From: Ectocarpus siliculosus
Taxonomy: Eukaryota > Sar > Phaeophyceae > Ectocarpales > Ectocarpaceae
Reading direction: 5' to 3'
Length of the DNA: 62,123 bases
Assembly: GCA_000310025.1 (NCBI GenBank)
Contig: FN649754.1
Coordinates: 425,848-487,970, forward strand
The notes under the pieces were generated by a model. It had not been told where the DNA came from. It worked only from the letters and a program-made list of their open reading frames with translations, and ran no database searches. Of the stretch, positions 7,466 to 59,579 are shown one piece after another; position 1 is the stretch's first letter; the number at the start of each line of letters is the position of its first letter. The position numbers were made by a program, and so were the translations under genes.

Positions 7466-9339
7466 CAGAGACAGATACATGGAAAACACGCCAATGCCAG
7501 CCTACACTGGTATAGTGTGATGCCACACGAGTGAAGACAGAGATAGAAAACTCACCAACGCTCAGGCTCACGTAGTCTACGCTACTGCTGTAGATGATCT
7601 CTGCAGCCCTCTCTGTGTTGTCTGGTATGTGGTACATTGGCCACCTTGACAACGTTCTGGTCGTGGCTGATACGCGTAGTATACCATAAGGTTGCGAGTC
7701 AGCTCACAGGGTGCGATCGATTTTCAAAGCGTCATTTCTCCTCAACCAGGAGGGTGCGAGCGCAACTGATACTTCTCAGGAAGCTCTCGATGAGATACTT
7801 CCAAAACCGCCCTTTTCGACACCGTGGTAACCTCCTGGTTGTGGAGAAATTCCGCTTTGAAAATCGTCCGCACCCCTGTGCGCTGACTCGCAATCTTACG
7901 GCACTTGAGTACAGGGGCGGAGAGATGGCACTCCCCCCAGACCGTCTTTCAAAGGTCGATTGCTCCACAACCAAGATTGTCTGTACCGTACCGTATACCG
8001 TACCGTGGTATTCCGTAAGAGGCGGAGAGATGGCACTCCCCCCAGACCGTCTTTCAAAGGTCGATTGATTGCTCCACAGCCAAGGGTGTGCGGAAAGAGC
8101 TCGATACATGTACGGAAAGCCCTCGACGACATGTTTCCAAAACTACTGCTGTTGTATGCCTATGCATGCATACGTTACCCGCGCTGTTCGAGGGTGTTCA
8201 ACGAAGACATCCAAACTACGCTGTGCTTCAGCAGTGTACACCATCGCTCAAGAACCTCCCTCACTTTCCACGAAGGCTTGCTTCGTACGGTATGTCCCGC
8301 GAACCCAGCGACTGCTGTTTAGGTTCCTTTTTTTTTTTCTTAATATGACACAACGAATCCATCTCTATCTGAGAAAAGAGTCAAATATAGATAAGCTATG
8401 AATCCATAGCGTCAGACGAAGGCTACCTGTATTTCCACGATTTCCCGAGCAGCACATAGCGAAATCTCCCCTGTGGGTAATAACAGGCTCAACAAGACAG
8501 TTTGGTAGCAGTGAGGAGCACCTGTCAGCAGTATTTACAGGTCAAGTTCTTAATCTTTTCGACTGTTTTTGTTTTTTTGCCTGAACTTCTTTATCTCAAA
8601 GTGGCGGAGCGTACACTGCTGTACAGGCCAAATTGTGGCAGCACAGCCAGTGTTGTATGCATATAGCATAGTAGTCGGAACAAATGCAAACAACACCGGG
8701 GGGCTACAGCAGTACAAATTACAAAGCAGCACAAACTGCAACATGGAAATGGTGCAGTCACTGCTGCTGTTATGTAGTCAAGCGGAGGTTGCAGAAGGGA
8801 GGTGCATGGTCAGCTAAATATAGATACCGCTGTCAAATAGGACAAAAATTCACCCTGTTGGAAAAAGGGCACAAGCTGTTGGGTTTTCAAACAAGCCACC
8901 GTAGTTGTGCCTGTCCGACAGAAACACCAGCATGAAAGCCAGCTCGCCTCAAACCACGTTGTTGCTGGAGCATCCCTGGGAAGCTCCTTACGCGCGTGTT
9001 CTTGGATTGAAGAACCAAAGTGTCGTCGCGATTTCAAAAGGACACACAGCAAAACAGCAAATGGCAATTATTTTCCAGTCAGCAGGCGTGGCAGTCGCCC
9101 CCTCTCCGCGAGGAGTGCTCGCAAGGGTTACAAGGCAATAGGCTCACTTTTTCTCCGTTGAACTTGACCACCACGTAAGGGTCGGGCATGCCCCGGGCTC
9201 GAGCCAACCCCACCGCGCCGGCGGACCTCGGCAATCCCCTCGCGGACACGACGTGAATCCTCAGCAGGGGGATCTCGTCCTCAACGTTCACCTCGTACGA
9301 CCTGCTGGGCGGAAACGGCGGCCGCTTCTTGTAGCTCAT
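1..9339 (-). CDS. C2-domain protein, N-terminal part (3' end beyond the left edge)
   Basis: Seven exons read leftwards: 9148-9339, 4636-4825, 3936-4319, 3243-3423, 1870-2041, 1299-1393 and 1-521 (open to the edge), giving about 578 codons with compatible phases at every junction. The start is the ATG at 9337-9339. Exon 1 gives the first half of a C2 domain (EDEIPLLRIHVVSARGLPRS, then MPDPYVVVKFNGEK). Exon 2 continues it with RRPEWNQNF at residues 76-83. Exon 3 gives VVLELWDEYVRED and NDLFGEG, separated by a Gly-rich loop and preceded by poly-Ser. Exon 4 has GDRLIGVCRIS and exon 5 GTIRIAVSL. Exon 6 (VLWNGHDFSSPSRWDKVF) looks like the start of a second C2-like unit. The last exon is Ala/Gln-rich and probably disordered. 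C2 domains usually bind phospholipids, often with Ca2+; the Asp pattern allows this but does not prove it. Intron 1 is 4.3 kb. The exact 5' border of exon 3 is the least certain. Confidence 0.72.
640..1020. repeat. Tandem repeat of about 155 bp with GGGGTCCCGTGA sub-repeats
   Basis: GGATCGAG..ACGTAGGATGAAGAAATTTA recurs at 744 and 899, followed each time by GAAGAGAGGGGTCCCGTSAA. The 12-bp GGGGTCCCGTGA motif occurs several more times. It lies in the C2-gene intron between the exons at 1-521 and 1299-1393. Confidence 0.8.
2053..2340. repeat. Three copies of a 108-112 bp repeat, then (GA)n
   Basis: Copies start at CCACCACGAGCC (2053, 2161, 2273); the third is truncated and followed by a (GA)n run at about 2305-2339. 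The array begins 12 bp from the 3' splice site of the C2-gene exon 1870-2041. Confidence 0.85.
3165..3225. repeat. CAG repeat tract
   Basis: About 12 uninterrupted CAG units followed by mixed CAA/CAG, in a C2-gene intron. Interspersed shorter CAG tracts at 2793-3120 carry ATTGAAATGCAGCAG direct repeats. Confidence 0.85.
4838..5102. repeat. TTG/TTA/TGG trinucleotide tract
   Basis: Interleaved TTGTTGTGGTGGTTGTTA and TTGTTCTTGTTA segments repeat over 265 bp in higher-order units of 36 to 60 bp. It lies just upstream, in transcription order, of the 3' splice site at 4826 in the C2 gene. Confidence 0.9.
5165..5905. repeat. Tandem array of about 121-bp units
   Basis: About five units contain CAAGCAATTTCACCCGCCCA, TAACCCGTCCTACATAACCC, GCCGCATTTACCCGCC, GCATAAAAAGACTTGAA and TTCTATGCTAGCAA. 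The first, more diverged unit is longer. It is noncoding and in intron 1 of the C2 gene. Confidence 0.85.
5907..6222. repeat. Direct repeat of about 105 bp ending in a T-run
   Basis: Two copies (about 5910-6014 and 6120-6222) share GTGCAAGCTTTCTTAGCT, GACGGCGCTAACCGGCTGAC, CAATGAAAAGACGTTTGAGT and CGTCCCATTTTTTTTCTGGC. They are nearly identical. The GGTTCGTCCC..T8 ending loosely recalls a pol III gene end, but I see no convincing A box. Confidence 0.8.
6256..6650. mobile_element. Foldback element with TTAGGG repeats in both arms
   Basis: The left arm begins AGTAGTCTACGCAGCAAA and the right arm ends with its complement. Both arms continue through CATATGGGATAAAGT, CCGTGCTTTGGGG, four TTAGGG units (6324-6349 and, inverted, 6561-6585), the GTCTGCGTGCCCC region and AATCCTGCGTAGGCGGTCCG. 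Arms are about 150 bp with few mismatches, enclosing a loop of about 85 bp. No protein is encoded and no convincing target-site duplication is seen. A degraded partial copy lies at 34297-34372. Confidence 0.85.
7208..8465. repeat. Dispersed direct repeat of about 125 bp (two copies)
   Basis: The segments 7208-7330 and 8338-8465 share TTAATATGACACAACGAATC, CATCTCTAT..GAGAAAAGAGTC, ATAGCGTCAGA and TACCTGTAT..CTACGATTTCCC. They flank two inverted-repeat elements, as if one insertion complex had been duplicated. Confidence 0.75.
7682..7902. mobile_element. Inverted-repeat element, subfamily with CGCACCC arms
   Basis: TACCATAAGGTTGCGAGTCA, GGGTGCGATCGATTTTCAAA at the left, and TTTGAAAATCGTCCGCACCC, GACTCGCAATCTTACGG at the right. 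It has the same size and plan as the TACCGTA family but a different arm sequence. It lies in intron 1 of the C2 gene and is followed directly by another rearranged pair at 7910-8090 containing a 45-bp direct repeat (GGCGGAGAGATGGCACTCCC). Confidence 0.75.
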
Positions 9340-10178
9340 CTCGTGGCGTGAGCCCCAGCGCGGGGTGTGAGGGAGACACACCACACCCCTGCCTACTGCT
9401 GTGCTATCTGATTTGTGTAGCAACATCAATGGAATCCATGCCGAGAGGGGCGCCGCAGAATAGACGACGGTATGTGATTTCTGACATATGCAACTACAAC
9501 GGAGTATCATTAAGGAATAATATAAACACACACAGAAAGACTACCCATTCGAGATATACCCACAGCAGTCGAACGTTTCCTGTTCATGTGGTGGGTGGTG
9601 GGCGTACTCAATGATGTGCTGTGGTGGCCCGATTTAGCAACCCTCCCAGTGTCAGGAGTGAGTATGGTCGTTGTTCAGGGCAGGTCGCTATTGCCAGTAG
9701 CCGGAATGCAGTGGTGTCACGCTCGATGCACCGGACATGTCGCTTGTAAGAAGACAGGATCGCTAGATCTCTAACTGCTATAAGCGCGATGCGATCTAGT
9801 ACTGTCGGGCGTAGTAACCGTTTCACGTGCATACAGCAGTATGTACGCGGGTTGTCGGCCCAACCAACACGACACACATCTTTCTCGATATCTCTCCACA
9901 TATTGCACGGCTTCCCACAACATGTGTCCATTTAGTGAACTGATGTAGTAGGTGTTGCGGGACTACTGCTGCAGGTTCTCTCTCGAGAAAGAGACAGCGA
10001 TTATTTCGCTTCTTCCTATGCGTCCGCCCGGCCGTTCGGTTTGTTTATTCCTGTGAAAAAGCATTGAAGAAACAGAAGGTAACATAACTGCTACCGTCTA
10101 CACAGGTAAAGCATACGGTTTCTCTCTTACACGCGGTAGGCGTTTCTCGATTGCAATCACTGACTGTTTGGTCCTCCA

Positions 10179-12298: not shown

Positions 12299-15200
12299 TC
12301 ATCCGACGATTTTTCTTGGAAACTTTCCGTTACCGCCCCCGATCCCCTTTCCAGGAGAAGGACCGGGACCCATGTTTCCCGTGCCCATAAACAAGTGCTG
12401 GTCGGCCAACAGATCTTTGGCTTCTGCAGCCGCGGTCCCCTGCGGTACACCGACAAAAGCGTGAGCGGGGCGGTGGGTGGGAACGGGCAACAACCAGACA
12501 AAATGCGTATCACGTAGGGACAGCAGTTGTTGATTCCGAATACTGCTGTGTCTGGCGCACCACTTACCGAACAATACTTGACGTGTAGGCTCTAGATCTC
12601 GTTGGCGTCGTGGGCTACACCAACAACCACTACAATAGATTGCTTTAATGGGTTTCGTGTGGGAATTCGTATTCAAAGCAAAAGGAGCTTCGATGTTTCA
12701 CGGGCCACGCACTCGGGTGAAGGTGGCGTCATCTGTACAGATCGTATGTCTGTCCGGTGCCACAGGTTCGCCTCGGGAACACAAGTGAGAAAACCCGCCT
12801 GCATCACACCGCCGCTGGGTTTAGGCCTGTACTCCGTAGGCGATTGTTTTCGCGATTTGCATACACTAACTTTTTCTCCAGTCTATTTTCAGTACATTAA
12901 CAAGAATCGACAGCGAATATATCAGGCAATCGCCTACGGAGTACAGGCCTAGTTGGGTTTCAGCAAGCGCGTCGAAGGCGGCCTACCGTCACAATGCGTA
13001 AAATCACCTCACCCCATCGGTACCACGTACCTACTGTATACTTCGCGAATCCAAGGATCGAAAGCGGAGGGGGTGCAATTTGCAGCTCTAGCAAACACCC
13101 ACATATCGCACAAAATACCGTCATACCATATCAGGAGCACAGACTACCGTCGGTTGCATAAGATATCACACCCCCTGGACCGATTTTCGAAGCTCGAATT
13201 CTCGGCAGGAAAAGCAGTGACGGTGCCGAAAATTATGGCGTTGGAACCGTGTCGTCGAGAACTTTCCGAAAACATATCCTTTGGTTTCGGCATCCTCTTC
13301 GTCGTGGAGCAATCGAGCTTTGAAAATCGGTCCAGGGGGTGTGATATCTTATGCAACCTACGGTAGTTGCAAGACCACGAGCGTGCAGGTTTTGGAGCAC
13401 ATGACTTTCAAGTGGGAATCAGACTGAACAGACGGCGGCCTGTATGAAAAATAGTGCGCTGCAGACTGTGGTGGACTAACCTCAGGCATGACGTTGTCGG
13501 CGATCCTCGCCAACGTTTTCCCCGCGAGCCGCCTCATGAACTTGCTCGCCACGACCTGGGCGCCGGGCATCATCTCCGGTGCCAGCGGCGCCAAAGTCTT
13601 GGCGGTGGCCGCAATGTCTCGCGGCCGAAGCTTCGGGATGGTCTTGATCAACGACGCCGGGAAACGCGCTCGCTTCTGACCCTGAAGAAGCGGACGGGCG
13701 GCGGGGACGTCTGGGGTTAGGGCTTCATTGGCATCCAAGACGACGGACCGCTGACAGGAGACGCGAACGAACTCGGAGGGTCTTTGTGACAACCTTGTCC
13801 GGTGGGGGTTAGCGACACACGCCGGCATGACAACAACCGTTAGTTGTTTCTTCTTGTGTCCCGTCTATTCTGGGCACTAGTCGACGCCTCCCGGTATATG
13901 TTTCGACGCACAAGCCTACTGAGGGAGGGGTTCATTCGAGGATATGGTAAGAACGAAGGAGTGGTGGTGGTGGTGGTGGTGGTGGCGCTAACGACCTTTT
14001 CGGCTGTTCTAAGCGCCGCGCTTTTCTTTGGTGATCTTGTCGCAACCTTTGCGCACCGAGCACGAAGAATCGTTGCCTGATGAACAGTGTTTCGCGCGAT
14101 TTGTCTCTGTCTCTGTCTCTGTCTCTGTCTCTGTCTCCGTCTCTGTCTCTGTCTCTGTCTCTGTCGCTGTCTCTGTCGCTGTCTCTCTCTCTCTCTTTCT
14201 TTCTCTAGCTCCCTCTTTGGTTCTCTATCTCTCTGTCTGGGAATGCGTCTTCCAGTTTAACCGACTCTGAGCGAATCGTCACTCGGAGGCTCCGTAAATG
14301 GTTTACCCGAAAGCGGTCGTCCATAGTACTGTCTCTCGATCAAAATATGTCAGAAGAATTGAGAAAAGCGCATCCCGTTCTGCTATTAGCGAGGCGGTTC
14401 CAAGGTTGAACCTTCTTGGAAACGGATGGGTAACCCCTCGTAAAAATGTGAGGGACTCCGTATGTCGACAGTTCTGTGCGAAATGTCTAGGAAACGGACG
14501 CGTAACACACCGTCAAAACCCCAAAATGGCTATGTATGTCGACCGGGGGATTGCAACAGCGGTGCTATCTGGCCCACCTCGGCCTCATGGGAAGCATCCT
14601 CGTACTGCCACTCTCTTCTCTCGGCTGCCCCCGCTGTCAACGGATTCTTCGCGCCGCTCGTGCTTACTGTAGCTCTCCTGAAGATGTCAACTAGCCTTTC
14701 CGTCGCCCGGAGAGTCTCCTGGAAGCGTCAAGGTTCACGTTGTGATTGGTCAAGACCAAGGGAAGATGTAACACAGGCCAGTCTTGTTGCGGTTCAGGCT
14801 ACGGATAAACCGAGGCTGGAGTTGCGGTTGGCCAAGGTCGAGGGTTGAAGCAAAGGTTGCATAGTTGAGGTCGAGCTTGTGGGTGAGATCGATGCTTCGG
14901 CTGAGTAAGGCTGAGGTTGAGGCGAAACGCGGGCCAAAGAGTACATGAAGAGCCAGGATAATTTCAAGGTCGAAGGGGAGGTTTGTCCGCTATTTCTGCT
15001 GCCTGGACGAGAAGCTGGTTGGTGAGATCGATGGTTCGGCTGAGACTACCTAAGGCTATGGATGAGATGAAAGGTCGATCCAAGCGTAGAAGAAGACAAC
15101 GGATGCTTTCAAGGTCGAAGTCAAGGTTTGTCCTCTATTTCTGCTGTCTGGACGAGAGAAGCCCATGTGCTGACACGGGGTTTTGTCTGTTGACTCCCGT

Positions 15201-18200: not shown

Positions 18201-21200
18201 GTATCCTCCGTCAGCAGGCGTCGGCACAGGTACGGGAAGCACTCCTTGACGATGCTGTACCCGGGGTCTATCGACAAGCCGAGGCCCTCGAGGGTGCCGA
18301 AGCAGCGGATGATGAGCCCGAAGTAAGCCGGGATGCTGATTGGGTAGTTCTTTGCCAGCTCCTCCACTTCCTCCCCGACGGTGTCGATGGTAATCGTCTG
18401 AGCACCCCCCCCCTCGCTCAGCTGTTCCATCACCTGATTGGTTGGAATGAAGGGGCGCATGACAAGGGGGGGGGGGGTGTACTCATAGTCGTGCATGCCG
18501 TATAATAGTCCTTAGACCATTGACCTCACATCCCTACAAAGCCGGAACGGAGCACGCCGGGTTCTCACCCGATCAGGCTCTTACATCACCAAGCGCGAAG
18601 CACCGTGAGGTATTCGGCGAGTCGCATGAAGGGTGCCTTGCATCCTGCTAAGGGTGTTCAGCATCTTGTGCTTACTTCCTTACGTACGGATGATGACAGC
18701 TGCGTATGACATAATTTATTTTCTGGTGCTTTCACTTCCATGGGAAGGGGGAGGGGCGGTGTACTCATGTAAACGCATGCCATGGTCGTTAGACGATTGA
18801 TCTCGCATCCGGACTTCTGGCGATAGGCCGTGTTTGCGCCGGCCACGATACGTTTCACAAGGAAAAAACAGAAGCGCCAAACAAGGGTCATGGGATGGGG
18901 GTGGGGCGTGCTCATGTTTTGCATGCCGAAGTTGTTAGACCATTGACCACACGTCCTCGAGAGGACGGAGCAATGTTCCCACACAGGACCGATCACCGAT
19001 GGCCAATCGCTCCTTTCCTAGTTTGCCACAAGATGGCTGCATAACGTGGGTATGCGAGGGGGAGGGGCGTTTGCGGCTCGACTCACGATAGCGATTGGGT
19101 CATTCACCAAGGATCCTCACTGGAGACGAGCCGCCGCCACAACATCCCCAAGACGTCTCGCTTCGAGCTTTCGTAATTCAATACGCGATCGCCGCTTTGT
19201 TTTCAAGTTTGCTACGACTATGCTATCTTCACTAGAGTCATCCCACGATAGGGTGGGGGAAAAATGGAGCCGAAATGACGGTGGCGACAGGCTACGCGGT
19301 TCGTTCGCGTAGCCTCTTGTATCTCTTCGAATCGCTCATGTGTTCCGAATCTGATTTCGGGACAGGGACACCCATCCCATTGGCTTCCGTTCTGCAAAAA
19401 CGTTTTTTGTTGTTGATCGTTTTTCGGTGAGATACGGAGCTACGCGTCCGCGTATCCCATGTTTTCAAGGCTGCTACGACTATGCTATCTTCACTCGTCG
19501 CCACTGAGGACCACCGTCTATCCGTGCTATGGCCGCGTAGGGAGTCAACGGTTGTCTATAGCCCAGCGCGACAAAGCAAAGTCGTGTTGCCACAGGACCG
19601 GGTGCCGGAGTCCTGGTCAGACACACAAATGCAACGAGGCGTTGTCCTGAACAGCCTTGACTACTTTCGTTCGAGTATCAACAACATTGGTTCCTTTTCT
19701 TCGTCAACAATAGTTAAATGTTCCGACTGCTGTACTTCAATTTTGTCGATAACCCGCTTGAACATGACCAGTATGACCGATCATGTTTTTCGCTTCATAA
19801 TAAGGGGTTGGAGCCCTTACCGGTGATCATTCTTATTTTCGCGGAGGTCCCGGAGGACTGCTTTTTGCCGTACTGAGGTTGATGACTTGTCGTTGGTCAC
19901 CAGCCGGTTAGCGCGGTCCTTGCTAGTAAACTAAAAATACAAGAGAACACACATGCGCGTGTTTTTCAAAGGCCAGCAGGTAAGCGTGGTCGATGCTAAC
20001 TGACACACTTGCACACACACACCTTGGCGAGGAGCGGGACAACGAGGGCAACTTTCTCGGGATCATCCCCGACTTCTGGCGAGATGAAGCCGAGGACGAT
20101 CAGGTCCTCCAACGTGGCGGGGTAATCCTTGGCAATGAGATGGATCACGTACTCCAGGAGCGCATAGCTCTGTTCTTCGGTCACCTGGAGAAACGGTGCC
20201 ACGCAGAAAATACGAGCACATGGTGCCGGGGGGGGGGGGGGGGGGGGCATACGCCTAGCTTGTGGACAGGAGAAGTTTCAACTGGAACGTGCCCAAAAAT
20301 TGCTGACCCCTTAGGGTTGCACAAACAAGCATACGTCAGCAGAACTCTTTGTTCCGAAGTTGTGCATGTGGCGGACGACCATGTTCGATGTCCTAGGCTT
20401 GGATGTGTTGTTCCATCCCGGGCGGCCTCGTTCTAGACCCTCATCGCGAGGTCAGCGACACGTATATGGTTCGGTTTCCCCGCCCAAAGGCGGTTTCTCT
20501 TCACATGAGATAATTCTCGTTGTCGCTGTCGTCGACGTCATCGTCGCTGTTGTTGTGCTTGGTACCCCTGATTACACGTTGAGCAAACTGCCCACCTACA
20601 TCAACATCGGAGTTGGCGAGATGATTGCAGAAGGAGAAAGACAAACAAAACAAATATCGGTACTCCGCCGTGAATCATGCCAAGCGGGCCGTCGCGAAGA
20701 AAAAAAAATGGTACCTCGGTCATGAGCCCGAAGTCGAGCACGCAAAGTGTCCCGTCGTCCTGCAGGAGGAAGTTGCCCGGATGGGGGTCGGCGTGGAGGA
20801 ACCCGTTGTCGAGCAGCTGCACCAGGTAGGAATTCAAGAGCGTTGCCTGTGGAGTGGACGAGGCGAGAGACAGAGGAAGAAGGTCGAAGCGTGAGGACCA
20901 CGTTTCGCGCATCGTGTGAACATGCGTGCTCGACAGGAGAAACACAGGGACCTAGAACCTCGTTAGGGAAAAACGTTTATTTCCAGCAGGAGATATATAT
21001 ATATATGGGAACCTAGCCGCTTACGTAAACAAGATACTGTGCTCGAAAGGGTCCCCAGGTAGCCAGTCCTAGGCCAAAACGTTCCGAACCGCGTCTCTGG
21101 TAAAAACCAAGCAACGGCAGCAACGGCCACACCAAGACCACCAAAACAGGACGACAAACACCCCATCAAGAGCACTCCCTCCGCCACTGCTACCAAACCC

Positions 21201-23798
21201 TTTTCCACAACAGGCCACGCCCTTAGAAGCAGCAACATCGCGATCGTCTTTAACAAAGACGCACGACACCACAGCCACCGCCACCCACCTGTAGAGTTGC
21301 GAGGCATGCTCTCCCCTCGGGGCTCCTAGCCTCCAAGTTCGAGGCCTTTTCCCCGTCCACCCACTGGGTTACCAAGACGTATCTCGTCGTCATGTCCCGG
21401 TAGACGGAGGGGACCTTGATCGCGCTCCCGAGGCTCTTGTGCTTGGCCATTTCCTTGGCGAAGCGGTCGGCGTTGTTGGCCTCCATCGTGTAGTCCATCT
21501 CTTCCAGGAACCTCACCGCCCAGCTGTCGATGAGGCTCTTGACTGAGCGGGAGGCGTCCCGCAGTATGGACACCGTGCTGCGAGCGCGAAAGAATACGAT
21601 TGAGTACCGATTAAGATAGAAGTGAACTGACGGGTTCCTTGGGAATCGGGTCTTCCTTAACACTCCCCACCCACAGTGTTTCCCCTCGACTGGGAACCCA
21701 TTGTGACCAGGACGGGTAATTCGATAGAGGTTTCACGGGCTATTGCCAAGATCTAGTCAAAGATGTGCTCCCGGGACTGAACCGTACATTCGTCCATGGG
21801 AATGTCCATCCAAGGTAGGAGAAGAGTGTGCACAACCGGACTGAGCATCGAACTATTATGTAGTAGTGTCCTAGACAACGCCGTTGCGAAGTTGTAGCGA
21901 TTGTGGCAAATTGCAATTGACAGATATCTTGGAAATTGGGCCCTTCTTCACACGAACATACGGTAAAAGAAGAGCTCTCAAACGGCGTGAGGCAAATGGA
22001 TAGTTCTTTCAACGTCAACATACACGTCTACCGTGGGCTGCATTAGATACCCAACCTAGACCGATTTTCAAACCTCGACAACTCTGCGGGAAAAACAGCA
22101 TCTGTGCCGAAAATGACAGCCTTGGAACCACTGGCCGAGACCTTTCCGAAACGTAAAACTTTGATTTTGGCATCCCCTTCGTCGTTGAGCAATCGAGCTT
22201 CACTGCTCGGCTTAGGGGGCAGGGGGTGTGGTATCTTACGCGTGACTTACGGTACTACGGCGTACCCGACAGCAGGGTTGGTTGGCGCTGCTAACCAAAA
22301 CGTTTTCCATGCAATTTCTGTGCATTGAATCCATCCGCTTGTCTTCTACAAAGCTGCCACGTGCTACTCCGTTCGGGAATATAGGGACATTCGGACAATC
22401 ACATTGAATGGTCCCTATATTTCCAAAACCGAGTGGTATCAACAACAACGTAGTAGCAACGTTTGACTCCCAGTGCAAGCCACGGCTTTCGCCCGCTCAC
22501 CCGATGAGGTCGAGAATGATGCGGATGACGTAGAGGTCTCGCGTCACCGTGGCCAGGACCTTCGGCCGCTGGATCTTCACCGCCACCGTCTCCCCCGTCC
22601 CCTTCAGCCTCGCCTTGTACACCTGCCCCAGCGACGCGGCCGCGATGGGCCTGTCGAAGGACTCCACGCTCTCGAAGGCTTTGCCGACGGGGACGCCGAG
22701 CTCACGCTCCAGGATCTTCCTCGCTTCCGGGGAGGAGAACTCTGGCACCCGGTCCTGCAGCTTCTGCATCTCTTCGAGGTATGGGGCGGGAAGGATGTCC
22801 GGGCGGATGGACGCCCCTTGCCCCACCTTTTTTAGACAGTTTACATACAATCACAGGAAGCTGACGCCTTTTAGTGAGTGGAGGGAAACCGGCTGGAAAC
22901 TCGGCTTATTTAATGGTCTGTTCAAGCCTACCACTGAATGTTATCAGTGATTTCAGCCTGTGCTAAGCACAAAATATCTATTATATGCCATTTTACTTAG
23001 AAGTATACCATTTTTGTTGTCTGCAAATCGTTTAATAGGTGGATGTCTTTTACAATACATCCCCTGTAAGTTCTCTACTGGGTCACCTTGATGAAGGCGG
23101 GTCCGTTCGAAGACGTGAACTCCCGCATCTGGACCGCCCTGACGGCCATGTTCTTGTCCCAGTTGTTGGTCAGCACGTCTGCGAGGACGTTCAGCAGGAA
23201 GCTGGCGAGGGAGGCGGACACCTCCACGAAGCGCACCGCCACCACCAGCGGCTTCCGCCGGTAGTACGCGTCCAACTGGTCGAGATCGTACTCGGTAGGC
23301 AGGGGGGGGCTTTCCCCTCCGAAGCGCTGGACGAAGACGGCCAGGACGGCGGCGGATCCCAGGAGGGAGAGCGCCGCCACGACCGCGCCGGCCTGGTCGC
23401 TGCTCAGCCCGAGCTTCTCCAGGGAAGACTCGATGACCTTGGTTGCGGGGCTCAGGTAGCCGTCGACGGCGTTGAACATGTCCTCCGTGGTCTCCCACGC
23501 TCTAGCAGGGAGAGGGGCGAGGTGGAGCGCCGACTGCAGGGAGCTCGTCATCTCGGCCGCCATCGTCGCTATCTGGTGGGTCGTGCGGGTGTCCGTGATC
23601 TCTCCTAGGAATCGCATGTGGTCGTCGTTGAGCAAGCTCAGCAGCACCGGCGACTCCCCCACCGAGAAACCTTGGTACCCATCCACGAACGATCCCATAC
23701 GCGCGCCAAGCGCGGATTCCAAATCGAACCCCATGTCTGCGCCGGAGTCCAGCCCCATGCCCAGGCGCGTCGCTGCCCCTCTCCGTGTTGGCGCCCCT
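12299..23798 (-). CDS. ABC1/UbiB-family atypical protein kinase (ABC1K/ADCK type), first exon missing
   Basis: Eleven exons on the minus strand: 23087-23798, 22501-22826, 21289-21577, 20715-20846, 20023-20184, 18140-18433, 17327-17689, 16331-16396, 15407-15586, 13481-13681 and 12299-12439. Together they encode 954 aa to a TGA at 12299-12301, and every phase closes. Family hallmarks are in order: the KxGQ motif across the first junction (FIK|VGQ, then RPDILP), the Ala-rich loop AAASLGQVYKARL, VAVKIQRP with the ATP-site Lys, the LEEMDYTMEANNADRF segment, HADPHPGNFLL and LDFGLM. The downstream helical region (IPAYFGLIIR, LEGLGLSIDP) is typical of plant and algal ABC1K proteins. A hydrophobic stretch near AGAVVAALSLLGSAAVLAV may be a membrane helix. 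Members act in quinone or prenyl-lipid metabolism in mitochondria or plastids. Targeting cannot be judged because the N-terminus is unresolved: exon 1 as given starts with one base of a split codon, although the frame also stays open upstream to about 24.3 kb. The assembly gap falls in an intron. Confidence 0.88.
12822..12951. mobile_element. Short foldback with perfect 25-bp arms
   Basis: TAGGCCTGTACTCCGTAGGC plus GATTG at 12822-12846 is matched exactly by its reverse complement at 12927-12951, with an 80-bp loop. The perfect match suggests a recent origin or selection on the hairpin. It lies in the last intron of ABC1K. Confidence 0.85.
13145..13365. mobile_element. TACCGTA-type inverted-repeat element (MITE-like)
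   Basis: The ends are TACCGTCGGTTGCATAAGAT and its near-complement ATCTTATGCAACCTACGGTA. The arms continue with ATCACACCCCCTGGACCGAT, TTTCGAAGCTCGA and GCCGAAAATTATGGCGTTGG. The element is about 220 bp, noncoding, and lies in an ABC1K intron. Confidence 0.85.
14100..14205. repeat. TCTGTC / TCTC simple repeat
   Basis: About 13 TCTGTC hexamers followed by TCTC repeats, in an ABC1K intron. A related AGAGAC tract occurs at 7431-7474 and a GGT tract at 13962-13985. Confidence 0.9.
15608..15690. repeat. G-rich ACTCATGT/GCATGCC dispersed repeat, copy near an ABC1K 3' splice site
   Basis: GGGGGAGGGGAGGGTGCTCA, TGTTTGCATGACCTAGTTGA, TTGATCATTGACCACGCGTC, CTCGAGAAG. Read on the gene's strand, it gives a long pyrimidine tract 20 bp before the AG of exon 15407-15586. 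Confidence 0.65.
15705..15804. other. Assembly gap (100 N)
   Basis: One hundred N characters lie in the ABC1K intron between exons 15407-15586 and 16331-16396, with G homopolymers on both sides (about 14 and 18 G). The true length is unknown; the poly-G flanks suggest a sequencing failure. No exon appears to be lost, because the phases across the gap match. Confidence 0.99.
16960..17125. repeat. Dispersed retroposon-like repeat with (AAC)n tail, copy 1
   Basis: GACCGCGTCAAGTGTTTGGC, TAGTACGGACAGAAGAAGGT, ACTGGATAGAGAGAATGGAA, then TAATGTGAAGACAACAACAA. The same order appears at 48170-48290. The TGAAGACAAC(AAC)n end alone recurs at 51500 and, inverted, at about 5095-5106. Confidence 0.65.
17850..18135. 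repeat. Degenerate CAA/CGA trinucleotide region
   Basis: A long purine/C trinucleotide stretch (AACGACGACAACGACCACGA) in the ABC1K intron directly beside the 5' splice site of exon 18140-18433. Confidence 0.8.
18460..18990. repeat. G-rich dispersed repeat, three copies
   Basis: Copies at about 18465-18580, 18740-18805 and 18893-18990 share G-rich..GTACTCATGT, GCATGCC, GTTAGACCATTGACC, then CACGTCC and CGGAGCA. The first lies about 30 bp from the 3' splice site of exon 18140-18433. Confidence 0.7.
22029..22254. mobile_element. TACCGTA-type inverted-repeat element, diverged copy
   Basis: TACCGTGGGCTGCATTAGAT at the left and ATCTTACGCGTGACTTACGG at the right enclose ACCGATTTTCAAACCTCGA and GAGCAATCGAGCTTC, the same internal order as the other copies. 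It lies in an ABC1K intron. Confidence 0.7.
22375..22425. repeat. Hairpin, about 17-bp stem
   Basis: GGGAATATAGGGACATT pairs with AATGGTCCCTATATTTCC across a 15-base loop, with one bulge. It lies in an ABC1K intron, about 75 bp downstream of the 22501-22826 exon in transcription order. Confidence 0.6.
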
Positions 23799-28089: not shown

Positions 28090-28098
28090 GCGATTAAT

Positions 28099-40900: not shown

Positions 40901-43900
40901 CGCTCCGGCAAAGTGCCCGTGAATTTTCGGGGCAAATAACGGCGCTAAACAGGGCCTCTACTGCTGTATCTTGCGATCGCGAACGGCTGTCCTCTAAACC
41001 ACAGCCTCGCGGCCTGCGAAGAGTTCTCCGAGTTCAACGCGTTTATTCGGGGGTGCGAGCACCAGGACGCGTGCCACGGGCTGGACCTGAAGGCGTACCT
41101 CATCCAGCCGGTGCAGCGGGTGCCGCGCTATCGGCTCCTCATCATACAGCTGCTCAAGCACACCAAGGAGTCGCACCCTGACTGGGCGGATCTGAACGCG
41201 GCACTAGAAACCGTGAGAAATTTTGTGTTCGTGTCTAAATTTACTGAGCGAAACAACTGCGCGGACAGCTGTGCTCGTGTCTAAATAGTGGAGGAACAGC
41301 TTCGTGGTCTTTGACACCTGCGGCTTGAACGTGATCGTTCAGTCTGTCTAGTGAGAACACACTTGATGGTCTGAATGCCTGTGAACTGCCGTATGTAGTA
41401 GACAAGAGGTGTTTGGCTTCCCTCCACTTGTGTTGGAGAAGGCGTGTGCCGGCACTGAACGCACAGACATCTGTGAGGGGCTCTCGGGTTGGAGGTATCG
41501 GAAAATCAGCGTGTTGGACGAATGCTTTCGTGGAGGTGGGGGGGGGGGGGATGACGCTTGTTTTGTTCCCGGCGAAGCTTGAAGGCCACTCAGACTACGA
41601 TCGACGGCAACAACGGTAAATATCGGCAAAAGAAAGAAAGCAGTCCCAAAAAACACACACGTACGTATACACGGGAGCCAATGTTGTAATTTTCGATGTC
41701 TCGGCCACTGCTTCTTCCTCCGATCGGTCGTGGCTAGGTTTCCAGTACGGTGACAAAGCTGAACGAAGGCGCCCGGGATAAAGAACGCTTCGTGAGGGCA
41801 TTGGAACTCCAGTACGAGTTCAGAGAAGATTTCCTAAAGCCCTCAAGGTGACTGCCATGTAGATATACCGTAGTCTGGCATGACGTTTCGACCGTTCTTT
41901 TTAGCACGAAACGTGGAACGACACCAACCGAACCAGCCGGACCGGGGTGAAAAGCAATAGTATGTACTCGTAGAACAGTTCCCCTTTGGTGGTGTGTACC
42001 GACAGTTCTCCTTGATAGTGTGTACTGGAAGACAGTTTGCCTTGGTATTGTGTACTTGTAGCAGACAGTTTCCCTTGCCGATGGGTTCGACATACTAGCA
42101 CTGCTTGCTGTTGGTGCGGAACCCCCGTGACGTGTGTCTCTGTTTCTATTTGATGCTTTGCCTCCCCGTCCCGACTTCCCTCTCCCCTGCCTGTCTACAA
42201 AACGTCGCGTGCTCACGTCGGGCGGATGAACGATGTTTGATGACACTGTACGTACATGGCGGTATGCTTTGGAATACGATGCCGCGTACGAAGTATCTCG
42301 TCAACCCCTGACCCTAATCCTATCAAGCAGATACGAAGTCCAACACCGCAGACTAGCCTTCGCGCACCGAGCTGTGGATGATGGCGTGGATGGTGTCTTA
42401 CCTCTGTTGCATTTCTCTACAGTTTCAAGGAGGTTCCCCGAGGCTTTTTACGATTTTGGATTTTATGTCCCCTAACCTAAAAAAAGTGCGCCGGAACCTC
42501 AGCAAACATCACTGCTATCCCTTGGAACGCGATTCTGCGTGCGAAGTCATCTCGTGAAGGAGGGATTCTTGCTCAAGGTTTGCAACGGAGGGCCCCGCCG
42601 ATACAAGTTCGTTCTGTTCTCGCACATGCTGGTCTACGGAACGGAGGCCAGCCTGCGGGCGAAGCTTCAGCGCGACCACCGCAAATACAAGGTGGGAATT
42701 ATTTTTCGTTTGAGTGCTTTACTATCTTCGCTGAAGCATTCTGACAGTCATTTTGGTACTTTGGTGAAATCGTTGAGATCAATGGTTTGGTGGTCATGTT
42801 GGACTATATTTGTGTGGAGCGACTTTTGTTGAAATTTTCGCTGTGTAGGGTTGTACGAACAACAAAACGACGCTCAGGAAGAGTGTGAATGTTTTTCGAA
42901 TAGTTTCGCTGCAACATTCCTCTGTGATATATTTCGAGGCGATGCCGGTGATATTGCCATTGAAGAGACACGCGCGAGTTACTTGCCGTGCGCACGGCGT
43001 TGTGTGCCGACTCCTGTAGCTGTTGGATGCAAACACGAGCATGGTGCCGCCTTTGTGTCCACTTCCTTTCCGGGCGTAACGTGCAAGAGAGCCGTGCGGC
43101 TTCCCTACCGTCGGTATGTGCCCTTTGTCCCAACACCATTGCGCCACATACTCGAGGTGGCGTTTCGGGTTTCCTGCCGTACGACGTATATCCTTTCCCA
43201 TACCCGTTGATTCCCTGAGTCTTCGTTTTGTTCGTTCGTGCTTCAGTGCTGCTGCTGTGGTGCCAACCAAACAAATATGTCGGTATTCTATAAATTGTCA
43301 CGGTGATATTCGTTCATGCTACTGCTGCTGCGGTGCCAAGCATAAACTGTTGTGGGTATGCGGTGGTGACAGCGAGCTATGGAGTCTCCTGTGGTTGACC
43401 CAAACTCGGTGTATATATCAACCACGCCCAAGGACGAGACAGAGTGAGCATGCCATGCGGAGCATCAAGTCATATCACACTTTCTGCCTATGACTTACCA
43501 AACCCGCAATGCCGTATTTTGTCTCCGTCATATCGTCATCACTAGGTGCACGGACGGATCCCTCTGCATGAGTGCCTCGTGCTGGACTACGGCAGCAGCG
43601 ACTCTTTCGCGATCGCGCGGTCGAGCGGGAAGAGCTTCGTGGCCATGGCCGTCTCCGCGGAGGCGAAGCAGGTGAGCGAGGCTCACTCTCGGGAACATGA
43701 CAAGTGCTGCTGTGCATGCAATGCGCTAAACGCTTCATCGAACAGCGGGGTGTTGGTAGAACAGGTGTGGGGATCGCCAGACTGAATGGTGCAACCGTCC
43801 CAGAAAACAATATGGTGTAGGCGAAATCGCGCGACATTGATGGGACATCTACTGCTGTCTCATTTCTCCGAATAGTGCCGATAACCCGGAACAAAGAAGA

Positions 43901-46900
43901 ATATTTACGTATGGACAACGATCGATCAACTTTTTTTAAAACTGCAAGCATACTCTGCCAATGGGACGCACACACACATTGTACCGCATGAAAATGAAAT
44001 ACAACCGAACCTTTTCTAGAAATGTTTGTCCCGAACGGCAACGATGGTGAACAAGAAAACAACATGGCGGCGGTGGTGACCACGCACGCGCAGGCATGGC
44101 TAGACGCCTTCGAGGAAAGTTTCGCAGGGATCAAGGATAACGCCCAACAGGACGACGGCAATCAAGGTCAACGTTCACTGCCGCAGCAGCAGCCGACAAG
44201 AAGAGGAAGCAAGAACCGCGGAGCGCCTTCGAGCCCCACCTCGGAAGCGAACAGCAGCCGCAGAGCTTCCGAGGATGACTGGACCTTGGCCTTGCCTCCT
44301 GCCACGCGACAGGAAGATGATGGCCGCGTCGGTGCAGGCAACGCCAACAGCAGTGCCGGTGAGTTGATTGTTGTTGCTGTGGTTATGCAGTTACCCGTTT
44401 ATTCTGTTGTTGTTTGCCGTTTGTGAGCGGTTGTTGCTGTTGCTGCCGCTGCCGTTGCTGGTGCTGTTCGTGCCTCGGCCTTTGTTGTTGCTTTCTCCAC
44501 CTTAAGAACGGTTCCCACCACGTTTACAAACGGGTCAGAACTAGCTTCTTCACGCAGTAGTAGCGACTACAAACAAGCAGAGAGGCGTGGAGTCTTGAAG
44601 ACCGTTGGCCCCTTCCAAATGCAGACATTTGACGTCAACAGCGGCATTCATTGTGTGAGGTCATGCCGTGAATACCCTCCTTTTGCGGTGATCATCGCTT
44701 TTGTTGCCGCTTTTTAATACATGTTTCCGTTCGGTTTACTTAGCATACGACGTGAATTCCGTGCTTGTGTAGGTCTCTAGCTTTACATGCAACTGTCGTC
44801 TTCCTCGTTGAACATCCATTCATTTATCCTGGCTTTGACCTGAAACTCATGATGAATTTAGTGCTGATGCCTACGCCCCAAGCGAGAATTTTGCGCCGGA
44901 CCTAGCGTTAATATCTCCGTGATGGTCAGCCTGTGGGCGTTTCCGTCGTGCCGAAGCTCCTAGTATCTGTGGGGCGGGCGGCCGTTGTCAGTTTCCACTT
45001 GTACGCCAAATGATACTAACGTTTCAGCAATGTCCAAGGAGCCGCATATTGAAGTGCTGCCTTCATCTGCGCTCTATTTGAAGCAAGCCCACCCACGATT
45101 GACTGATTGATTGTCAGCGCCCCTCGTGTGTGCTGACGATCGGAGCGGCGACATGAACGTTTCGTGATAACGCGGGTGCGCAGGGCACTCCGCCGAAGGC
45201 GGCATGATCGGTAGGGATGGGGAAGAATGCCCCCCCCCCCTGTCGCCTCCAGCGAGACCAACAAAGCCTCATTTGGGATTCCCGAGCGGGGGAGCAACGC
45301 TGGCACAGACGGTGGCCGCTTCAATGGCCATGCCGGGTCGATGGTCGCTACCAAACGGCGGCGGTGGCGGCGGCGGCGGGAGAATGTCCTTGGCGTCTCA
45401 TGCTACCAGCGGTGGTGGCTCGTCTCCTCGGTCGGCGCAGTCTTCATTTTCGAGACGGGCTGGCGTTCAGGTGCGGGTGGCCAGAGGATGTCCTTGTTGT
45501 TGTTGTTGTTGTTGGTAATCGTGGTGTTGTTGATGCTACTGCTGCTGCTGCTGCTACTGTTGCTATCGTCGTCATCGCTGTCGCAGCCATGCACGGGTGT
45601 TTCAGCTCGACTCGTAACACCACATGCGTATTGTCCAGAGCGCGCTAACGAGCTGTCACATTTTCGTTTCTCGTCGAAGAAGTCGTGAAACACAAGTCCT
45701 ACTTCTTTCCAATCGGTACCGTTCTCATGTGATCGGCATGTTTTCGACATTGTTGGTCCCTCACGTGGTAAGCGGAGGGTTGTGTTTCACCAGTCAACCA
45801 CAGAACGAGAAAACTACCGGTGCGTGTCGATATCTGTCTCCTGTTTTCACTTGTGCGCGTTGTCGATATAGTTGGTTCCTCGCGTGGTAAGCTATCGCTT
45901 GTGTTGAACCAGTTTACCGCAGAGTGAAGATACAACCCCACACTACTTGTATGCACTACCGGTGCATGCCGATTACTGCTGTCTCCTGTGTGCACTTGTA
46001 CAGGTGTGGGTGCCGGTACACGGGCGTACAGAGATGCACGAGATCTCCTTGCGAGGCCTCCCCGCCGGCTCCACATCGGGTCTCTTCAAGGTCCAGGAAG
46101 GGGTGAGACCCGTGCCGGGGCCCCGTGGTTTATTTTTTCCTGTGTGCGGTTTACCCGTAAAACAAGTTGGTTCTCTTCTACTCGTGTTGAGAGGGGTCCC
46201 CTCTTGTTCAACCTCTGATTATGGTTCATTGTTGCTGATTCTATCGTGGCAAAACACGAAAGAGATGGTTTGTGTTTGTGGTCGCTTAGAGGTCATGATA
46301 TGTCCAGGTGACACCTGGGCTCCGACTGTGGACAGCTTGCGTCATGGGCTCCCACAGCTTTGTGGTAGTCCGTTACCGAGAGCACACCGGTTCTCTTTTC
46401 GTCGCGAGATTTGAGCTAAACCCTATGACCCTAACCCTATCCCCAGCGAGGAAACGGCCGAGAATAGAACAAGCGAGGCCCCACCTGGAGGGGATTACCC
46501 TGTCCATGCAAGATTGTTGCGCATGCAAGAGATGTGCTTCCATCAAAAGCAGGTCTCCTGATTCCCAAAAGGGTCCCGAAATCTTCGGACTAATGTCCTT
46601 CCCGGCTTTTCGCGTGCGTGTGCTTGGACACTGCCCTTCCGTCACAACTTTTTGTCGTCTACACATCATCCACGATTTTGTCGCCTGTTGTTCGTGCAAC
46701 AACGTTGCAACGTTTTCGGTGTCCGCCCAGAGGGCTTCGTGGACTGTATGTTCTTTGTTTTAACAGTGCCGTCGAGGTCTGGCAAGAAGTGACGATCGTT
46801 GTCCAATCTCACGTTCTTGTTTGGCTCTGCTCGCGTGCTACCTTGAAAATACGTGTCTTCCCCCTAAAACAAGAGGGCGTATGTAGCAAATGCTGGATAT

Positions 46901-52900: not shown

Positions 52901-52984
52901 TTGTAAGAGCGGGCTCCGATGTAAGAGGGTCGAAATCGGTTGTCACGGACTCGAGCCGTTAAATGTTTATTCCGGAGTAAGACG

Positions 52985-53039
<55 letters not shown>

Positions 53040-53052
53040 ATTGTTGTTGTTG

Positions 53053-53103
<51 letters not shown>

Positions 53104-55469: not shown

Positions 55470-58400
55470 TCAGGTTTGCCCGGAAAGAGCGCCTTTGTGG
55501 CGTTGCAACCCCCCGGGAGATTGTTGTTGTCCATCGGTCGGTAGGATAAGGCCCCTACACAAGTTTATATTTAATGTTGGTATGGTTGCATCGGATATGT
55601 ACGAGGTAGATTAGGGACGAGGCACGTTCGTTCTCAGTCTGATGTTACCGGTTCACGTGTTGCTTGTTGTGTGGGTCGATCACTCAATACGATGTAAGTC
55701 GTGGGCTACCACGCATTAAGCATGCATGGGGTATTTTTTTCCTGGTGGCTCTACCACTTGTATTGTGCCTCTCATATTTCGAGAGGCAAGGCTTTCTTTC
55801 GCTTCTCGAGCTTGATACCAAGAACCACTTTATATCTACATGTACGCAATATTTTTCGATTATCAATTTTTCGTGCGGGGGGTCTTGTACCCTGGTATCA
55901 CACCTGACTGACTGACTACGTACAAGTCATGCTTATACTTCTTTCGGAAGTATTGAGCCTCAATGATGCACCAAGTCTATAGATGGCGCTATCCGGAATT
56001 ATTTATTTTGTATGAAGGAACTGTTTGGGATGACGATATTTATAGCAGCATCGGTTTGTTCATACGTGTTTTTCTTCGTCATGACCGTTGGTTGACTATT
56101 TGAAACGGCTCTTCTGCCGATCCCTGGCATTCTCCTCGAGACGTGAGCCCGCCTGTGCTTGTGGTTTTTATTCTGTTGCCCTGAAAGGGAGGGTGGGAAA
56201 GGTGATGGTTCATTGAGACCGACAGAGTCAGTCGTGATCGGAGCGGCATCATTAGATTGTGTGTTCTTGGGAAATGTGGAACTATTATTAGCTGTGACGA
56301 GTTGGAAGGGATTCGATGCTCTTCGTCTAGAACCAACCCCGCTCGTCAAGTAGGGTTAGCAGTGTTTGTTTTGTAGCGGCGACTAAAGGGATGAATACGA
56401 TTAACTATCTAGACTTAAGTAGGCTAGACTTGGAGGGCGAAGATCAGGCCGTTGGGAATGCGACGAAAGTCCCACGGCCGGGGCCATAGACAGATGTATT
56501 ATTTATAGCTGTAGATGGAACGGAGGTGCGGTGTCTCTGTCATTCCCGATGGCAGGGCCCCGCTTCTCTTACAAAGTGCTTGATGAACGCAGCTATTATT
56601 GCGAACGGAAGAAATTGAAGCCTGAGAGTGCTGCTGTTGATGCTGAGCTGAGAACGTGCCGTGAGCTAGAGTGCGAGTGATGATATTGTAGTAAAACGGG
56701 TAGGTTGCATGTTCGCAGTACCGGTGTGCATGTATAAGGATCGCAAAACACGACACACCTAACACGGATGGATGACATTGGTGGGAAAGGATTGATGGTG
56801 GGCGCCCTAGCTGGCAAGCAGCAGCGTATCTTCCAGATCTTCGATACTACCCAAGAGAGATTGCTCTCTCGTACCATCTCTACGCTCCCTGGACGCCGAC
56901 TACAGCAGTAGAGTCTTGCGTCTAGCTACTTGCGTCCGACTGGGGCAGGCACCGTGAAGCTCGACGGGCAGATGGTCTCTGCAAACCAACCCATACGTGA
57001 AAACCGTTCTGAGTCTACCGCAACCTTCGTAGTCCACTTCGACGTTGGTCGATACGAGCGTAACACCACGCGCACAAGCAGGCAGGCGCGGTTATGTACC
57101 ACACTGAATTTTCAGGGGGGTCCTTCGCTTGCGGGTCATGTGGGCTTCAGAAGTCAGAATCAAAGCACCACCAGTCGGTAGACGTTTTTGATAGAAACTG
57201 ACTTATTTTAGTCTTGGGATCCGAATGACCAGACAGTTCCCTCCGAGGAGGATGGCTCTCCTAGACGTTCCATCCAATGTCAACTTCGCGTCATGTTCTC
57301 CTTTCGTCACCCACATCCTGCGGAATGTTCCAGGGTCCGTCTCAGACGAGAGTCTTTTCGTCGGCGATACTCTGGGCGAGAGTATCCTGGGTTTCAGGAA
57401 CAAACCACCTCGATCAAGTGCCCAGCCTACATAATAAGGAGGATCAGGTTCCCTTTTAGTAATAGGCTCCCCAAATGAAACCATTAGACTATTGTGTTAG
57501 GGATAGAGGGTTAGGATAGTGAGCTCTGACCACTGTAGTCTTGGCAGTAGGTTGGTAGGTTTGATTTCGGCTGCTTTTGTGGCGCCGCAGAGCCGTCGGT
57601 ACAAGTATGTTGTATATATGCGTACGTACAACGGTACATGCGCACCGCACCCGTATTATTACAGAGTCTCATCTCGCCCCTAGCGGTACTCCTAACAGAA
57701 TGACACCACGGAGAAGCAACAGCTCCCGCCTGTGTCGTCTTGGTCAGCAGCAGTCCTCCATCGGTCTGCGTTGCGCCTGGACTCTCAGTCTCTAGAGGGA
57801 CGGTCAGAGATAGTCTACGGTGCGTGGTACAAAGATTCGTACCATCCCAGAGGAGAAAAGGCTGCATGCATGTATCACGGAGGTGTGGATGAGCAGCGCC
57901 GTGCAGCAGAGACAGCAACAGCAGTATCTGTATCTCTGACTCCAGACACACTACACCTGCCTGGTGCATCCTCTGTGTATCCAATGCAAACGAACGTCGG
58001 TCGACACGCAACACACCGTACGTACCCCCGGCCCCCTCTTCAGCTAAAGATCGTGCATGCCTGTGAGCGTGGGTACTCCCGGCTGCACTTTTGATCTCGC
58101 CGCAAATTCCGCTACAGCTGCAACAGCTGGCACTTTGGGTGCAACCAACTCTCTCTTTGGCTACACAGCAAGCAGGGTGCAGGAGCTTCGTGCAGAACCA
58201 TGGCGAGGAGATACACAGCGTCGTCTCTGGCAGCAGCAGGTGAAGCACATCAGTAGCAGCCTTGGCTGAAGGCAGGTCTCTCTGTCGTCAAAGCGTGCGC
58301 CGCCCAGTAGCAACCATCTCTCTCCGGAACAGCAATGTTCTTCACCTTGAAGGTAGAGGCGGCGTGCCGTGACGGTCAATGGCTGGCTCTCCGAGGACCT

Positions 58401-58586: not shown

Positions 58587-58806
58587 TACCGTATGATGCA
58601 AGATAACACACCCCATTGGTCGATTTTCAAAGCTCGACTACCCCTCTGCAGCGACAACAGGATGACGGTGCTAATAATGGTGGCGATGGAACCGTCTCGT
58701 CCAGAACATTTTCGAAACCTTTCGTCTTAGTCTTGCGTTGTTCTCTTTTGTCGCGGAGTAATCGAGCATTGAACGTATCGGTCCAAATGGTTGGGGTATT
58801 GCACGG
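58587..58806. mobile_element. TACCGTA-type inverted-repeat element, diverged right arm
   Basis: TACCGTATGATGCAAGATAA, CACACCCCATTGGTCGATTT at the left. The right arm is eroded (GAGTAATCGAGCATTG, ATCGGTCCAAATGG, GCACGG). Confidence 0.65.
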
Positions 58807-59579
58807 CTCGCCGCATATCTCCCCTTGTCCCGCTGTGAGAGCCTGGTGGGCTTGTGGTTGGAGAGTCTGCGATCTGGCTGATGATGCGAATCGATGTGTG
58901 GCTATTGCTCTTCGAAGCAAGTCTGCCCCGGGAAACATTGGCAGGTTCTGTATGAGGCAACCTATTTACCAAATCAGAGCCTACCGCAAGGTTGCGTTCA
59001 ATAGGCGTGCGTCCTGGAATTCTGTACAACGATTTCTGGTACCATATTCAAGATTGCTGTCCAAACAGCAGTAGCTCGCGCTTGTGTGTGTGACACTACT
59101 GCTCCGCCCGGGCAGTTTCGGGACCAACAACAAGCGCGATTTCTCGCGCCCAGCAGGCGCTAGGAGTGATGTCTGGTCTAAGCAGTCGCTGTAGTATTGT
59201 TGAAATAACGAGTTGTTTCATAGGTTGGGAATGTCAAAAACCGTGATTGAGTGATACTATGCGTGTGCATATGCATTCACGTAAGGACTACAACCACTTA
59301 CAGGTATGCATAGATGGTAGGCATGACATACAAAACACCCAGATAAATGACCAGCCGGTTTTTTCGTCCCTTCGCTGCAAAGATTTTTAACAGCACCCGT
59401 TCTACAGCAGTGGTGTTCTCTCAACGGGGGGTAGTGTTCTGTGATTGTTTCGTCGCTTGATTTTCAGGTACTGTACCCACTTTTGTCCGAGAAAGGGGGT
59501 GGGTATACCCACTTGTGTCTATTTCCCTGTAAAAAATGATCCCGTTGCATTCTACAACCTTTTAGGTTTGGGTATAATA

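Follow-up and report, generated by a model that had tools for sequence, protein, structure and literature searches.

The word ACTGCTGT was found to be strongly over-represented in the genome of the brown alga Ectocarpus siliculosus, where it has a strict asymmetric core, lies in noncoding DNA, shows no strand preference in introns and stands in flanks that are almost all unrelated to one another. It was studied in a stretch of 62,123 nt (GenBank assembly GCA_000310025.1, contig FN649754.1, positions 425,848 to 487,970; hereafter the window), in which an earlier reading made from the letters alone (the sequence-only reading) had described it as a promoter-proximal or first-intron regulatory word. 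We propose, at about even confidence for and against, that an abundant DNA-binding protein with sequence specificity recognizes ACTGCTGT in double-stranded DNA and is active in promoter and first-intron regions.

Abundance in the window and in the genome

Thirty-nine exact copies were counted on the two strands of the window (ACTGCTGT 18 times, ACAGCAGT 21 times; Table 1). Dinucleotide shuffling (100 shuffles) gave a mean of 1.97 and a highest count of 6, confirming both the excess noticed in the sequence-only reading and its estimate that about two copies would be expected. Thirty-seven of the 38 coordinates given there were exact; 19736 should read 19726, the copy at 24978 had been overlooked, and the empty stretch placed at 46 to 56.9 kb was recovered (no copy from 45983 to 56901). 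The extension to the decamer TACTGCTGTA, ascribed there to many copies, is real but belongs to 8 of the 39, for an expectation of 0.03 in the window. As had also been stated, every copy except that at 44347 is noncoding (38 of 39 under both gene models described below), and none of the 39 lies inside or adjoins a run of at least three CTG/CAG units. One-mismatch forms of the 10-mer (n = 24 in the window) deviated solely at the two outer bases in 21 cases. No Rfam family or tRNA was found in the window. At 0.63 per kb, ACTGCTGT is 2.3 times as dense in the window as in the genome overall (0.27 per kb).

All 492 contigs of the genome (189,456,909 bases) were counted on both strands, and the reversed word served as a control for composition. 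The excess of the 8-mer, for which the sequence-only reading had suggested a genome-wide count, was upheld, with 51,927 copies of ACTGCTGT and 7,247 of its reversed control. The strands carried 25,924 and 26,003 copies, as expected of any genome. The decamer TACTGCTGTA occurred 12,540 times and its reversed control 364 times.

A CTG-repeat background, which the sequence-only reading had named as one explanation that could undo its proposal, fails to account for this frequency because sister words with a CTGCTG core are far rarer. The sister 8-mers TCTGCTGT and CCTGCTGT (YCTGCTGT) summed to 27,136 (mean 13,568), making ACTGCTGT 3.8 times commoner; the sister 10-mers TTCTGCTGTA and TCCTGCTGTA (TYCTGCTGTA) summed to 1,710 (mean 855), making TACTGCTGTA 14.7 times commoner. 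The three-unit form TACTGCTGCTGTA was counted 730 times against 26 for its reversed control, and was thus 17 times rarer than the two-unit TACTGCTGTA. Identity with a CTG/CAG microsatellite was rejected, since no window copy lies in or beside a longer run and the outer A matters 3.8- to 14.7-fold.

Anatomy of the preferred site

The anatomy of the word was analyzed in a sample of 289,802 bases, made up of the window, random 10-kb loci and merged Ras loci. ACTGCTGT occurred 95 times in this sample, 3.2 times its order-4 Markov expectation of 29.9. The 24 one-base variants reached 0.57 to 1.98 times their own expectations, with ACTGCCGT (20 vs 10.1) and ACTACTGT (13 vs 8.4) at the top. The word was preceded by T or C in 71 of the 95 copies and followed by A or G in 63. 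Genome-wide, 36,250 of the 51,927 copies (70%) had the form BACTGCTGTV, for which even flanks would give 56%. The best form of the site is (T/C)ACTGCTGT(A/G).

A palindromic dimer site was rejected, as the perfect palindromes TACAGCTGTA and TACTGCAGTA jointly gave 817 sites in the genome against the 12,540 of TACTGCTGTA. Palindromes, sister words and the three-unit form are all far rarer, so strictness and asymmetry characterize the preferred site. A strict asymmetric core of 8-10 bases suggests, by its form, recognition by a monomer or by tandem domains, for example zinc fingers or Myb repeats. The variant TACTACTGTA (2,399 copies genome-wide, 5.5 times its reversed control) may be a tolerated form of the site. 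On contig 1, a plus-strand TACTGCTGTA was no more than 200 bp away from 4 of 35 TACTACTGTA and from 2 of 5 TACTGCTGCTGTA (0.45 and 0.07 expected), so that both forms stand beside exact sites in the manner of homotypic clusters.

The 150-bp flanks of 93 sites were compared. Twenty-five matching pairs were neighbors with overlapping flanks, and three pairs from different places shared 43-56 bp that were out of register with the word. A transposon terminus, for which homologous flanks on one side of the word would be expected, was rejected, as those three out-of-register pairs were the only matches between different places among these sites.

Some other short words also exceeded their Markov expectation in noncoding DNA of the window and loci L001-L050 (with the masking of the first gene-model version, see below), among them TACTGTA (59 vs 22), TAGTCTA (42 vs 14.7) and TATGCATA. 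The first of these resembles TACTGCTGTA reduced to one unit.

Genomic location and strand use

Genes were predicted with an ab initio finder that used codon usage together with splice and start signals. Ras exons served for its initial training and its own predictions for a second round. The first version had read 14 of the 30 training exons on the wrong strand and mis-masked some overlaps. In the corrected version, which supplies all figures outside the window, the finder was retrained and overlapping loci were merged. Splice-site and codon tables were nearly unchanged between the versions, and ordinary splice sites (AG/GTGAGT and CAG/G) were recovered.

With the corrected models, the sample held 2 copies in 55.3 kb of coding sequence (0.036 per kb), 65 in 168.2 kb of introns and 28 in 66.3 kb of intergenic DNA (0.39-0.42 per kb for the last two). 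Sense and antisense copies in introns numbered 13:18 in the window and 14:10 outside it, so the check for orientation bias proposed in the sequence-only reading revealed no strand preference. This lack of intronic strand preference, along with the presence of copies between genes, favors recognition of the word as DNA over recognition as RNA.

Position relative to predicted gene starts

The window had prompted the idea of a link with 5′ ends and is therefore unfit as its test. In the first model, 24 of its 38 noncoding copies were no further than 2 kb from one of five predicted starts (1.95 vs 0.35 per kb, p = 3e-7). The start at 9339 accounted for 8 of them and the pair 37624/39224 for 12; the other 4 were near 25076, and for two of these 23758 was within 2 kb as well. 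In the corrected model, the start at 9339 was absorbed into a merged model and 25076 became 24052, and 14 of the 38 lay within 2 kb of four starts (p = 0.0007; within-locus p = 0.0006). The sequence-only reading had placed 21 copies near three starts.

Of the 55 noncoding copies outside the window, 22 were at most 2 kb away from one of the 22 predicted starts, a zone that covers 26% of noncoding sequence there (within-locus p = 0.008, pooled p = 0.019). The region from -1 to +2 kb held 21 copies in 43,664 bases (0.48 per kb), and the region from +2 to +10 kb held 3 in 37,331 bases (0.08 per kb). Densities were 0.49, 0.50 and 0.46 per kb for -1 to 0, 0 to +1 and +1 to +2 kb (7, 7 and 7 copies), then 0.08, 0.15, 0.09 and 0.00 per kb in successive bins across +2 to +10 kb. 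First introns held 7 copies in 11.2 kb vs 10 in 41.4 kb of later introns (p = 0.05). Enrichment at predicted stops was absent outside the window (6 of 55 copies, p = 0.97). The copies keep no fixed short distance from the start, as the even kilobase bins show, and the intronic copies have no orientation bias; a core promoter element was thus rejected, and an initiator-like element is excluded because neither position nor strand is fixed.

Several observations weigh against the proposed reading of the word. The starts are predicted start codons from ab initio models, and correcting these models lowered the near-start copies of the window from 24 to 14 of 38 and left a group of 13 copies deep within merged gene models, at 10-20 kb. 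When near-start and deep copies were compared with those of five CTG sister words, the ratios were 21:3 vs 24:12 outside the window (p = 0.08), 14:8 vs 4:7 in the window (p = 0.16) and 35:11 vs 28:19 pooled (p = 0.12). Outside the window, the 5′ enrichment for -1 to +2 kb was 1.60-fold. This placed ACTGCTGT 10th of the 145 words present there 25 times or more; (GA)n and several CAG-type words ranked above it. In the Ras loci taken alone (12 of 24 copies) the bias was not significant (p = 0.13; within-locus 0.33), and the random loci were significant only within loci (p = 0.014; pooled 0.086). On contig 1, one-strand clustering within 1 kb was 26 vs 14.0 expected, and that of the sister words 12 vs 6.4; because the sister words cluster equally, this clustering was discounted as support. 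The sister form TYCTGCTGTA also adjoins exact plus-strand sites there (3 of 30 within 200 bp, 0.35 expected). The sister words may be weak sites themselves, and hence a conservative control.

In the pooled data ACTGCTGT ranked 7th of 109 words by 5′ enrichment with the corrected models; the first version had ranked it 1st of 109 pooled and 17th of 149 outside the window. For GCTGCTGT outside the window, the pooled p was 0.005 and the within-locus p 0.09. Taken together, a 5′-end bias of ACTGCTGT is probable, and its specificity to this word is not beyond doubt. The enrichment near gene 5′ ends claimed in the sequence-only reading was reproduced outside the window relative to predicted start codons; it is modest and partly common to CAG/CTG words and (GA)n.

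The most 5′-biased abundant words were (GA)n; 46 of 71 copies of AGAGAGAG outside the window lay within -1 to +2 kb. A few long tracts may cause this bias.

Interpretation and alternative explanations

In the proposed mechanism, a putative abundant protein would recognize (T/C)ACTGCTGT(A/G) in double-stranded DNA. Its sites would be scattered through noncoding DNA in either orientation, with a bias to the stretch between about -1 and +2 kb of start codons, a zone that would cover the promoter, the 5′ untranslated region (UTR) and first introns, and they might form loose clusters with weaker variants. Once bound, the protein would help to establish the active 5′ regions of genes or to control them. 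The protein, its binding and its effect on chromatin or transcription are what we infer from the distribution of the word. In a broader and unlikely version, the protein would be a lineage-specific general regulatory factor with tens of thousands of sites that opens the 5′ regions of a large fraction of genes, including regions shared by divergent pairs, and replaces TATA- or CpG-type signals. Its boldest reading takes the region at 37.6-39.2 kb, where six copies lie between divergent predicted starts, as a candidate shared nucleosome-depleted region that the word may help to open.

The word may instead have a chromosome-scale or chromatin role apart from gene regulation, such as in replication origins, meiotic recombination or nuclear architecture, and lie near 5′ ends because these are open. 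The position-flexible, orientation-free, genome-wide and noncoding pattern would fit such a role too; we consider it rather improbable.

A neutral origin was also weighed, in which ACTGCTGT is the two-unit relic of short CTG repeats and its 5′ excess follows CAG/CTG tracts. The words GCTGCTGC and GCTGCTGT were abundant in the first sample count (301 and 82 copies), the 5′ bias outside the window is common to CAG-type words, and the three-unit TACTGCTGCTGTA likewise exceeds its reversed control. Against these stand the scarcity of CTGCTG-core sister words, the 17-fold rarity of the three-unit form and the absence of window copies in or beside longer runs. As a full explanation it is already largely refuted by the sister-word counts, and overall we hold it to be decidedly improbable. 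If the 5′ bias is merely that of CTG-type DNA, the word stays a striking compositional fact that needs a cause.

It is very improbable that the word acts as an RNA signal in introns or UTRs, as a splicing enhancer, the site of an RNA-binding protein or a small-RNA target. Such a signal would suit the 65 of 95 sampled copies in predicted introns, but the intronic strands are balanced (n = 55, at which a strong bias alone is detectable), the strands are near-equal genome-wide and 28 copies are intergenic. It is likewise hardly credible that the word marks the termini or insertion targets of a dispersed transposon family, whose insertions would cause the excess. In its favor, the copies number tens of thousands, TACTGCTGTA is near-palindromic with TA at each end and three site pairs share 43-56 bp of flank. 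Against it, those three out-of-register pairs are the only non-neighbor matches among the 93 sites, and perfect palindromes are scarce.

Comparison with known systems

Promoter-associated words of general regulatory or architectural factors are known from other lineages, including Drosophila DRE/DREF and Motif 1/M1BP, the yeast Reb1 and Abf1 sites and the plant telo-box. Like ACTGCTGT, these are short strict words with thousands of copies, noncoding and used in both orientations, and they are concentrated at 5′ ends, as ACTGCTGT probably is. Their sequences differ from that of ACTGCTGT, whose protein is putative, and DRE-type words sit tightly upstream of the transcription start, whereas the bias of ACTGCTGT reaches about +2 kb of the start codon.

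Among stramenopiles, the INR, FPR and DPEP elements of Phytophthora are, in the available part of their description, also over-represented words near gene starts; most are found at fixed places near the transcription start, no more than 100-125 nt from the start codon, and their forward:reverse ratios range from 1.8 to 5.9 (PMC3599244). Compared with these elements as described there, ACTGCTGT is spread over kilobases, has no strand preference and is unrelated in sequence. In Ectocarpus itself, the available text of a chromatin study describes marks at transcription starts and reports that 61.7% of genes beside start-adjacent intergenic regions are in divergent pairs with shared nucleosome-depleted regions; in its main text the term 'motif' appears nowhere and no DNA word is proposed (PMC7784034). 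Two copy groups of the window are situated at divergent gene pairs, as are the shared depleted regions described in that text (PMC7784034).

A literature search for the 8-mer and 10-mer forms as whole words found no report, subscription papers and preprints being outside its scope. Searching for the shorter 7-mer forms together with Ectocarpus gave nothing relevant among the entries listed, where the single paper to name Ectocarpus concerns the use of single-strand conformation to distinguish algal species, and no gene-control word of such a kind was found for brown algae in these searches. Viral contigs scanned with two window proteins for related algal DNA gave no relatives.

Complex multicellularity evolved independently in brown algae. 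The roughly 45,000 copies above the reversed-word background offer a handle for isolating the putative binding protein. They could also serve to mark 5′ regions where a genome lacks annotation, and in the design of expression vectors.

Gene models and other features of the window

Among the gene names given in the sequence-only reading, the kinase and RhoGEF domains were supported by Pfam, but the models called C2 and NDUFB2 matched no Pfam family. The supported domains are protein kinase (37624, minus), ABC1 kinase (23758, minus) and RhoGEF (39224, plus). The RhoGEF match opens at profile position 33 of 180, so the true start of this gene may be further upstream. The copies at 56.9-59.4 kb, which had been guessed to mark the start of a gene at 61.2 kb, do lie upstream of an exon with a weak sideroflexin match near the N-terminus of the protein (Table 1), which makes the guess plausible. 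This match begins at profile position 10, so that the gene start is expected upstream of 61221; no convincing first exon was found there. The finder fuses this exon to the RhoGEF gene, probably wrongly.

Table 1. Exact copies of ACTGCTGT and associated gene features in the window (positions from the first base of the window)
Feature	Position	Strand	Basis
Copy	1832..1839	-	exact match
Copy	2713..2720	-	exact match
Copy, TACTGCTGTA form	7584..7591	+	exact match
Copy	8145..8152	+	exact match
Copy	8311..8318	+	exact match
Copy	8615..8622	+	exact match
Copy, TACTGCTGTA form	8706..8713	-	exact match
Copy	9395..9402	+	exact match
Copy	9562..9569	-	exact match
Copy, TACTGCTGTA form	9833..9840	-	exact match
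Copy	12520..12527	-	exact match
Copy	12542..12549	+	exact match
Copy (earlier given as 19736)	19726..19733	+	exact match
Copy (earlier overlooked)	24978..24985	+	exact match
Copy	25161..25168	-	exact match
Copy	26359..26366	-	exact match
Copy	26568..26575	-	exact match
Copy	33474..33481	-	exact match
Copy	34183..34190	+	exact match
Copy	35608..35615	+	exact match
Copy, TACTGCTGTA form	36612..36619	+	exact match
Copy	36819..36826	-	exact match
Copy	37658..37665	-	exact match
Copy	38193..38200	+	exact match
Copy, TACTGCTGTA form	38214..38221	-	exact match
Copy	38292..38299	+	exact match
Copy, TACTGCTGTA form	38740..38747	+	exact match
Copy	38822..38829	-	exact match
Copy	39632..39639	-	exact match
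Copy	39682..39689	-	exact match
Copy	40525..40532	+	exact match
Copy, TACTGCTGTA form	40960..40967	+	exact match
Copy	43851..43858	+	exact match
Copy, sole one in a predicted coding exon	44347..44354	-	exact match and gene model
Copy	45975..45982	+	exact match
Copy, TACTGCTGTA form	56902..56909	-	exact match
Copy	57918..57925	-	exact match
Copy	59065..59072	-	exact match
Copy	59404..59411	-	exact match
Between divergent predicted starts of kinase (37624, -) and RhoGEF (39224, +); 6 copies	37625..39223	.	gene models and domains
Between divergent ABC1-kinase start (23758, -) and next gene (25076, +, first model; 24052, +, corrected); holds 24978	23758..25076	.	gene models and domains
Exon with weak sideroflexin match near N-terminus	61221..61555	+	PF03820, E 0.0031, 16.9 bits, cut-off 22

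Elsewhere in the genome, 87 matches to the chlorophyll a/b-binding family were obtained, not all of them separate genes, a number in keeping with an alga; gene arrays lie on contigs C92, C232, C488 and C16. Twenty places had the identical score of 127.6 bits for this family (C92, C232, C488, C11 and C18), which suggests recent amplification or a repetitive contig. The predicted genes of L019 (two divergent models), L017 and L018 had no Pfam match and no copy of the word nearby, and are perhaps mobile elements.

The window also contains other repeats. Inverted repeats with related arms (GGTCCAGGGGGTGTG, TTTCAAAGCTCGATT) lie at 7709-7875, 26005-26180, 33739-34076, 50574-50786 and 59989-60520. 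They probably form a single family of small non-autonomous elements, and two lie within introns predicted for the kinase and RhoGEF genes. The inverted repeat at 6287-6620 has arms with telomere-like TTAGGG/CCCTAA units, distant from the contig end. Close to the 3′ end of the model called NDUFB2, a tandem array with a 34-bp unit and a 204-bp higher-order period occupies 30313-31003.

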